From Brevundimonas bullata (GTDB lineage: Bacteria; Pseudomonadota; Alphaproteobacteria; Caulobacterales; Caulobacteraceae): a stretch of DNA of 64,000 nucleotides. Both the position numbers and the translations under genes were made by a program. A model generated the notes under the pieces. It did no database searches. It worked only from the letters and a program-made list of their open reading frames with translations, and was not told the DNA's origin. The stretch is from contig NZ_QLLC01000008.1 in the NCBI RefSeq assembly GCF_003350205.1, positions 1 through 64,000 of the forward strand, written 5' to 3'. Every line of letters starts with the position of its first letter. Position 1 is the first letter of the stretch. Positions 38,117 to 40,236 of the stretch are shown piece by piece.

Positions 38117-39295
38117 TCAAGCCGCCGCGCTATCGTCCACATCGCGCTCGGCCCGTTCGGCCTTGATCCGCGCGCTCGCCCTCTGCTTCTCGCTCTCGGA
38201 CTTCAGCTGGCCGCAGGCGGCCAGGATGTCGCGGCCGCGCGGGGTGCGGATCGGCGAGGCGTAGCCGGCCTTGTTCAGGATGGCGGCGAAGCGTTCGATG
38301 GTCTTCCAGTCCGAGCACTCGTAGTCCGTGCCGGGCCAGGGATTGAACGGGATCAGATTGACCTTGGACGGGATGCCTTCGATCAGCTTGACCAAGGCGC
38401 GGGCCTCGTCGGGGCTGTCGTTGACGCCCTTCAGCATGACGTATTCGAACGTCACCCGGCGGGTGTTGGCCAGACCCGGATAGGCGCGGATGCCGGCCAT
38501 CAGTTGGTCCAGCGGGTATTTCTTGTTCAGCGGCACCAGGACGTCGCGCAGGGCGTCGTTGGTGGCGTGCAGGCTGATCGCCAGCATGGCGGCGGTGCGC
38601 TCGCCCAGGGCGTGCAGTTGCGGCACGACGCCCGAGGTCGAGACGGTGATGCGGCGCCGCGACAGGGCGATGCCCTCGTTGTCCGAGATGATGTCGATGG
38701 CGTCGGCGACATGGTCCAGATTGTAGAGCGGCTCGCCCATGCCCATGAAGACGATGTTGGACAGGCGGCGGTCTTCCTTGGGCGATGGCCATTCGTCCAG
38801 ATCGTCGCGCGCCACCTGAACCTGGGCCACGATCTCGGCCGTGGTCAGGTTGCGAACCAGCTTCTGCGTGCCCGTATGACAGAAGGTGCAGTTCAGGGTG
38901 CAGCCGACCTGGGACGAGACGCACAGGGCGCCAGCGCGGCCGACGTCAGGGATATAGACGGCCTCGACCTCGATGCCCGGCGCGGTGCGGATCAGATATT
39001 TGCGCGTGCCGTCCTTGGACACCTGACGCTCGACGATCTCGGGGCGAGCCAGGGTGAAGGCCTCGGCCAGGGCCGCGCGGGTTTCCTTGCCGATGTCGCT
39101 CATCAGGGCGAAGTCGGTGACGCCGTAGTGGTGGATCCAGCGCCAGACCTGGCTCGCGCGCATCTTGGCCTTTTCGGGCGGACAGATGTTCGCCTCGACC
39201 AGGGCGTTGCGCAGGCCCTCGCGCGTCAGACCGCTGAGGTTGACGGGGGCTTTAACCGGGGCGGAAGCACGCGAAAGGTCGAGCGTGATGCTCAA
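38117..39295 (-). CDS. rlmN: 23S rRNA (adenine-2503-C2)-methyltransferase RlmN
   Basis: 392 residues. Radical-SAM enzyme with iron-sulfur cysteines Cys132, Cys136 and Cys139 ([11 protein letters not shown]), the GMGEPLYN segment and the second methyl-carrying Cys near ACGQLKS at the C-terminal end. It methylates A2503 of 23S rRNA and A37 of some tRNAs. The N-terminal HhH-like domain ([15 protein letters not shown]) is present. Its promoter must lie between its start and the mntP leader. Confidence 0.96.
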
Positions 39296-39469
39296 GGCTG
39301 GATATCCTGCGGGAAAGGGAGGAGCGAGCCTCTAGCACAGATGCGGGGACTTGTCGCCTTCAGCCCGTTTGGGGGCTGGCCGTGAAACGCTCGGGCGGAT
39401 TGGCGCCCCCTCGGAAATAGTCTGTCCCGGCCCTGCGCGGTTGATCCTGACGGCCCTGACCGCTAAAGC

Positions 39470-39624
39470 CCGCCGCGTTGGGGAGTAGCTTCCGGCGTCT
39501 GTCAGCCGGGATCGCGTCAACATACTTGCCTCCGCCGGGGGCATGGCGCGATCAGCGGATACCCGTCCGCCTAGCGAGACCAGCACGATCCGGGGGCCGA
39601 GCCGGCCTGCGCCCGGACGTGCTG
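39470..39624 (+). promoter_or_regulatory. yybP-ykoY (Mn2+) riboswitch leader of mntP
   Basis: The conserved yybP-ykoY elements appear in order: GGGGAGTAGC (39480-39489), CGTCAACATACT (39514-39525), GCATGGCGC (39541-39549) and TAGCGAGACC (39572-39581). A perfect 7-bp helix joins GATCGCG (39510-39516) to CGCGATC (39547-39553), and GCGGA (39556-39560) pairs with TCCGC (39566-39570). A further hairpin (39581-39594 with 39612-39624) 28 bases before the mntP ATG is a likely expression platform. Family members bind Mn2+ and turn on Mn export; the gene downstream is mntP, which fits. Confidence 0.9.
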
Positions 39625-39651
39625 TCACGCGCCCGGCTGAGATCAGTTTCC

Positions 39652-40236
39652 ATGACCCCCATCGCCATCGCCATCCTGTCGCTCAGCATGTCCGCCGACG
39701 CCTTCGCCGCCGCGATTGGTCGGGGGGCCCAGCACCGCCCCACCCTGCCGCAGGCCCTGCGCTCGGGCCTGGTGTTCGGCGTCATCGAAGCCATCACCCC
39801 GCTGATCGGCTTCGCCCTGGGCGTCGCCGCCGCCAGCTTCGTCGCCGCCATCGACCACTGGATCGCCTTCGGCCTGCTCGGCGCGGTCGGCGGCAAGATG
39901 ATCTGGGAGGCGCTGAAGCCCGAGGACGAGGCGGAAGAAGAAGCCGAAGCGAAGAAGGCCGTGTCGCGCGGCCTGGTCGCCCTGGTCGCCACCGCCGTCG
40001 GCACCTCGATCGACGCAGGAGCGGTCGGCGTAGGCCTGGCCCTGCTGGGCGAGAACATCTGGCTGATCGCGGCCTGCATCGGCTTAACCACCTTCGCCCT
40101 GGCCACGCTCGGCCTGCTGATCGGCAAGGCGGCGGGCACGCGGCTGGGCAAGATCGTCGAACTGGTCGGCGGCGTCGCCCTGATCGCTCTGGGCCTCAAG
40201 ATCCTGCTGGAGCATCTCGGCCTGCTGGCCTTCTGA
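39652..40236 (+). CDS. mntP: Manganese efflux pump MntP
   Basis: 194 residues with six membrane helices in two similar halves. Each half bears a conserved acidic residue: SMSADAFAAAIGRG in the first and GTSIDAGAVGVGL in the second. An acidic loop (KPEDEAEEEAEAKK) lies in the middle. It exports Mn2+ across the inner membrane. The upstream Mn riboswitch gives direct regulatory support. No strong Shine-Dalgarno sequence is free in the leader, which fits translational control. Confidence 0.94.
   Translation: MTPIAIAILSLSMSADAFAAAIGRGAQHRPTLPQALRSGLVFGVIEAITPLIGFALGVAAASFVAAIDHWIAFGLLGAVGGKMIWEALKPEDEAEEEAEAKKAVSRGLVALVATAVGTSIDAGAVGVGLALLGENIWLIAACIGLTTFALATLGLLIGKAAGTRLGKIVELVGGVALIALGLKILLEHLGLLAF

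Follow-up and report, generated by a model that had tools for sequence, protein, structure and literature searches.

The question raised by this locus, in Brevundimonas bullata, is how an RNA element of the yybP-ykoY class, placed in front of an Mn2+ exporter gene, could act on the expression of that gene. The window denotes here the whole stretch of DNA that was analysed, 64,000 nucleotides of contig NZ_QLLC01000008.1 (assembly GCF_003350205.1). In our reading, the element is probably an Mn2+ riboswitch that turns on the translation of mntP, by an exchange between the basal helix of the aptamer, P1, and a downstream hairpin, H, combined with a pseudoknot between the loop of H and the ribosome-binding site (RBS) region.

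As for the genes, mntP (39652–40236, + strand) encodes a 194 aa protein of the Mn2+ efflux pump family, and the MntP gene named in a first-pass annotation of this DNA is confirmed by PF02659, with an E value of 1.4e-45 and 155.2 bits against a cut-off of 24.4. The score with the NCBIfam MntP equivalog, NF008546, was 158.6 bits, under the cut-off of 214; hence, membership of the MntP family rests on PF02659, and NCBIfam does not certify the protein as equivalent to its reference group. The closest named relatives are Brevundimonas, the best being B. bullata with 95% identity in MntP; among the Brevundimonas records stands L140, titled Bordetella sp., with an MntP 85% identical to that of the window and a title that may be wrong. 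The divergent neighbour, rlmN (38117–39295, − strand; TIGR00048, 379.2 bits against a cut-off of 290), is outside the switch. The aptamer is located directly upstream of mntP, between the rlmN start at 39295 and the mntP ATG at 39652; the gap described earlier is there, with 356 bases in place of 355. Finally, a search for GDT1 in the genome of the window gave no match, and a consensus scan of 39250–39700 found no sigma-70 promoter for mntP.

Regarding the aptamer, three matches passed the gathering score when the whole window was run through cmscan: two were tRNAs, and the third was RF00080 (Manganese, the Mn2+ riboswitch yybP-ykoY) at 39473–39572 on the + strand, with 54.6 bits against a gathering threshold of 45 and an E value of 1.1e-11; the alignment spans model positions 1–177, complete and not cut off, and it is the single match in the genome at E 0.001. 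This is the outcome of the Rfam covariance search that had been named as a check, and it bears out the assignment to the class: the blocks GGGGAGUAGC, CGUCAACAUACUU, CAUGG and UAGCGAGACC are all found, in the order claimed for them. We take the conserved core blocks to belong to loops L1 and L3. Pairing is perfect in P2 (39492–39509, 5 bp), P3 (39510–39553, 7 bp) and P4 (39555–39570, 5 bp), where two perfect helices had been noted earlier. P1, its 3' strand included, was added by hand, the Rfam match ending at 39572, where UAGCGAGACC (39572–39581, + strand) starts; the final CC of this 3' block opens P1, whose 5' strand, GCGUUGG (39475–39481, +), pairs with CCAGCAC (39580–39586, +). In this respect, the element and its MntP gene are the ordinary aptamer-plus-exporter arrangement of a known class.

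The comparison with relatives relied on four groups of leaders, from which near-duplicates of at least 85% identity had been merged: group A, mntP leaders that by their titles are mostly from Alphaproteobacteria and that include the leader of the window (80 reduced to 39); group B, 24 mntP leaders of other classes, among them E. coli, Methylobacillus and Litchfieldella (from 30); and, from the family of the window, group C with 35 GDT1 leaders (from 72) and group D with nine Na/Ca-exchanger leaders (from 12). Group A was brought from 39 to 34 by removing L187, L192, L197 and L206, whose aptamer matches looked chance-like by eye, and L242, an alphaproteobacterial mntP leader in which the aptamer is present, followed, by reading, by a different downstream hairpin with the usual loop pairing absent. 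Thirty-five leaders without a recognised core were removed, five of them GDT1 leaders, and a few loci were given their start codons by hand, with relatives as the guide. In L188, from a metagenome-derived genome, the codon aligned with the MntP start is ACG, and the true start may be elsewhere. The structure-blind alignment of group A, made with MAFFT, is referred to as A1, and that of group B as A2.

On the 34 mntP leaders of group A, the aptamer helices P1–P4 had 93.3% of the cells paired, with changes on both sides in 18 of 29 pairs; P1 taken singly had 85.8% of the cells paired, its outermost pair being broken in 27 of the 34, and AGACC was invariant in A1. Beyond the aptamer, the expression-platform hairpin H occupies 39581–39624 (+ strand), with a 5' arm at 39581–39594, a 3' arm at 39612–39624, 13 pairs and one bulged A; in A1, 85.9% of its cells were paired, and both-side changes occurred in 10 of the 13 pairs. 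H and the pseudoknot described below, taken together, had 87.5% of the cells paired, a value that fell to 34–48% when the partner was slid by one to three columns.

The P1 3' strand, 39580–39586, is common to P1 and to the 5' arm of H, and it is in this sense a switching strand: in the window, the formation of H costs six of the eight in-register P1 pairs. The suggestion in the first-pass annotation that a hairpin including the bases after TAGCGAGACC could act as the switch is supported by this overlap and by the covariation of H among the 34 relatives. At least three P1 pairs are lost to H in 28 of 34 leaders of group A, 14 of 24 of group B, 24 of 35 of group C and five of nine of group D, and in 30 of the 39 further leaders introduced below. 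Against the proposed exchange, P1 is compatible with the pseudoknot and with the upper six pairs of H. According to nearest-neighbour energies, the fold with the full H is 18–20 kcal/mol better than the P1 fold when no ligand is considered, so that the decision between P1 and H probably falls during transcription.

H has a second feature that concerns the RBS region. The segment AGCCGG in its apical loop (39600–39605, + strand) is complementary to CCGGCU (39633–39638, +), which directly precedes a weak Shine-Dalgarno-like GAG (39639–39641, +), 10 nt before the ATG. By complementarity, the two segments would form an H-type pseudoknot, a pairing absent from the first-pass annotation. The proposed unit reaches about 39641, past the downstream end of the element earlier placed at 39470–39624, whose strong hairpin at 39581–39624 is real.

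In group A, the swap test, an alignment-free comparison of the pairing between the loop segment and its own pre-start segment with the pairing to the segments of other leaders, was not significant (1401 of 10,000 permutations were as good), because the CCGG core is invariant in these leaders. A single pseudoknot pair varies; among the 34 leaders it is A-U in 12, another 11 have G-C, and the remaining 11 break it. Its covariation score was reached by one of 500 shuffles, and the association of A/G with U/C at this pair had a Fisher p of 0.0006 on 30 of the 34 rows, uncorrected for relatedness. Versions with the pseudoknot slid had covariation of 0.100–0.104 against 0.094 for the real register, with far fewer cells paired. 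As for the window alone, comparison with shuffles of its own tail gave p 0.249, and its H loop can close on itself (GGCCG/CGGCC), as it does in the minimum-energy fold; for the species of the window, the pseudoknot is a prediction made mainly by homology.

In more distant relatives, covariation of the pseudoknot is observed directly. In group B, the homologous helix has 10 pairs, eight of them with both-side changes in A2; on this structure-blind alignment of 24 mntP leaders, 84.3% of its cells were paired, against 31.8–55.5% for the slid versions. None of 500 shuffles reached its covariation score, and 23 of 500 reached its number of pair types. Shuffling the tail of each leader separately (214 leaders parsed, with H in the minimum-energy fold of 164) had limited power where leaders are rich in GC, and for this reason the swap test was used instead: permutations as good as the cognate pairing numbered 0 of 10,000 in group B, 0 of 10,000 in group C and 46 of 10,000 in group D. 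The loop-to-RBS pairing recurs upstream of mntP, GDT1 and Na/Ca-exchanger genes. The alignments of H itself fitted less well outside group A, with 45.8% of the cells paired in group B and 72.3% in group C; for the pseudoknot in the group C alignment, 48.5% were paired, and the count of pairs changed on both sides was not above that of shuffles (246 of 500). We think that this weak fit in groups B and C arose because hairpins of varying length were misaligned.

A further set was assembled from 40 RF00080 sites in other genomes of the phylum, hand-picked among the higher-scoring ones; it leaves out the family of the window, MntP-adjacent sites and several sites of genera already represented, and two genomes contribute two sites each. 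One leader, L283, was dropped for want of a recognised core, leaving 39. This set was not used to form the idea, but its sequences had been seen before the test windows were set. After excision of H's best uninterrupted helix, the cognate pairing averaged −20.7 kcal/mol against −13.8 for permuted partners (z −11.9; 0 of 10,000), and the z was identical with fixed windows. In 35 of the 39 leaders the pairing helix was at least as stable as −14 kcal/mol, a threshold close to the permuted mean, with up to 14 perfect pairs in L273; the four that do not reach it are L276, L282, L288 and L296, and in L288 and L296 the chosen hairpin looks wrong. An SD-like trinucleotide occurred within the 10 nt that end the pseudoknot strand in 28 of the 39 leaders, against 11.4 expected, the expectation being derived from 11-nt windows. 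As for the controls, windows in coding sequence 200 and 300 nt downstream gave z values of −0.2 and −0.4, and 29 aptamer-free MntP leaders gave −0.4.

Two more leaders deserve mention, L166 and L170, in which no aptamer is recognised, and yet the last 75 bases before mntP contain the stretch CCGGCCGGGC and the pre-start segment CCGGCGAG; possibly, they are platforms that have lost their aptamer.

Taken together, the proposed mechanism would proceed as follows. When Mn2+ is scarce, the P1 3' strand would pair downstream as the base of H, and the loop of H would pair with the stretch before the Shine-Dalgarno motif, giving an H-type pseudoknot that would block ribosome loading; we infer that this is the OFF state. 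When Mn2+ is bound by the aptamer, as its class predicts, P1 would be held, the base of H could not form, the pseudoknot would presumably loosen, and mntP would be translated. The direction of switching would agree, by analogy, with that of E. coli mntP, whose RBS is reported to be inaccessible without Mn2+ and freed with it (PMC11647493). Another pairing can be drawn in the H-type fold, in which the freed GGGG of the aptamer (39475–39486) meets a CCCC at the beginning of the mntP coding sequence (39655–39665, ATGACCCCC); this GGGG/CCCC pairing with ATGACCCCC could add to the masking of the mntP start.

The main competing explanation is that control is transcriptional, with H or the untranslated leader leading to premature termination, most likely by Rho, unless Mn2+ binds. 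This has precedents in the class: Rho-dependent regulation is reported for E. coli mntP alongside the translational riboswitch (PMC11647493), and a review has the same switch inducing both elongation and translation (PMC7838592); early termination without Mn is proposed for the RF00080 leader of BP3410 in Bordetella pertussis (PMC8546581), and the member of Lactococcus lactis works through a terminator (PMC11087558). H is also GC-rich. However, the consensus scan of 39250–39700 returned no terminator-like site, and H is followed by GUCACGCG, with no U run; an intrinsic terminator platform in the window was rejected on this ground. Moreover, the conserved loop-to-SD pairing that ends in an SD-like motif would have no role under transcriptional control, and the mneA and terC riboswitches of Vibrio parahaemolyticus gave no drop in read coverage (PMC13274385). 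Rho could still act on an mntP mRNA that is not translated, and we consider transcriptional control as the principal mechanism unlikely.

A different way to mask the RBS region would be through the 3' strand of P2, by pairing CAGCCGGG with CCCGGCUG, in which case the aptamer would have to fold for the site to be unmasked. This pairing is that of the unconstrained minimum-energy fold, it has 97.1% of its cells paired, and in group A the pre-SD segment has its better partner in the aptamer for 20 of the 34 leaders and in the loop for 10, with four ties. Nevertheless, since the aptamer itself dictates P2, this complementarity comes free; no cell had a change on both sides among the 34 leaders, against 11 for the pseudoknot, and 22 of the 24 leaders of group B pair better with the loop of H. 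The P2-to-RBS pairing was rejected as a general mechanism for these last two reasons, and for the window it seems a still less probable explanation than termination. The least credible of the three, with hardly any weight in our view, is that the conserved aptamer has no working switch here, or that it is a variant sensing another metal; it has been suggested that some variants of the class differ in specificity (PMC7266159), but the core blocks are intact, H covaries and the next gene belongs to an Mn2+ exporter family. The riboswitch acting on translation through H and its loop is the most probable reading.

Among known systems, the closest is the RF00080 leader of E. coli mntP, which shares the aptamer core, the exporter family and the translational ON logic (PMC11647493). 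By reading, it also has the same layout of H and pseudoknot, with GCUGGGG/CCCCGGU followed by AGGA; the window differs in the CCGG core of its pseudoknot and in a shorter H. In L. lactis too, the 3' segment of P1.1 enters a downstream hairpin without ligand (PMC11087558); that hairpin acts as an intrinsic terminator, whereas in the window the loop of the hairpin would reach the RBS. E. coli alx, an Mn2+/pH riboswitch with the same aptamer class, was considered as a further case of the pseudoknot and rejected, since by reading a terminator-like hairpin with a U run follows its aptamer. The preQ1 riboswitches are similar in that a pseudoknot masks the ribosome-binding site (PMC9495176 and PMC7838592), but with them the pseudoknot is the aptamer itself when it has bound its ligand, and translation is off, while the pseudoknot proposed for the window belongs to the expression platform and would correspond to the state without ligand. 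Compared with Rfam, the complete match to the 177 positions of RF00080 ends before both H and the pseudoknot.

Riboswitches of the yybP-ykoY class rank among the most widespread, and the structure of their aptamer has been solved (PMC6754395). In the literature searched, no description of a pseudoknot in the expression platform of this class was found; the founding papers of 2015 (PMC4376352 and PMC4703321) were outside the coverage, and the novelty of a pseudoknot platform is for this reason provisional. The word "pseudoknot" is absent from the main text of the E. coli mntP papers PMC9603457 and PMC11647493; in the passages covered of PMC9495176, PMC7266159, PMC11087558, PMC7838592, PMC5955585, PMC2659441, PMC9495366 and PMC10201423 the mentions concern other RNAs or methods, and the yybP and manganese passages of PMC11077080 describe none for this platform. 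As for translational control by the class, the portions of the literature searched state only that the RBS is masked, without a structure.

A survey whose filters lose weak matches detected RF00080 in 155 of the 199 genomes covered from the family of the window; for the genus, the count was 117 of 131. The regulated genes at 111 family loci, identified by tblastn with the Pfam names taken from one protein each, were MntP in 21, GDT1 in 77 and the Na/Ca-exchanger family in 12, with one locus, L030, giving no match; at 105 of them, the recognised aptamer core is at most 260 nt from the start of the regulated gene. Within the genus, the element stands ahead of either MntP or GDT1, depending on the species. 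One genome, G151, has two MntP genes, each with its own RF00080 site (L048 and L064); the MntP match at L048 comes in two pieces, and this copy may be frameshifted. In the phylum sample, the top score, 112 bits, is shared by two sites of a single genome that lie some 20 kb from each other, G308:C2:152205-152377 and 172457-172629, and that look like a duplicated stretch.

In conclusion, it seems somewhat more plausible than otherwise that in much of Pseudomonadota Mn2+ riboswitches share one platform, made of a hairpin that exchanges with P1 and a loop pseudoknot of about 5–14 bp with the RBS region, and that this aptamer-plus-pseudoknot unit is a portable cassette placed before unrelated exporters, namely MntP, GDT1 and Na/Ca exchangers, the exporter differing between species of one genus. 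A covarying pseudoknot is a specific fold that can be tested with compensatory mutants, both in E. coli mntP and in the leader of the window. If this picture is true, the Rfam match would lack the translational half of the unit.
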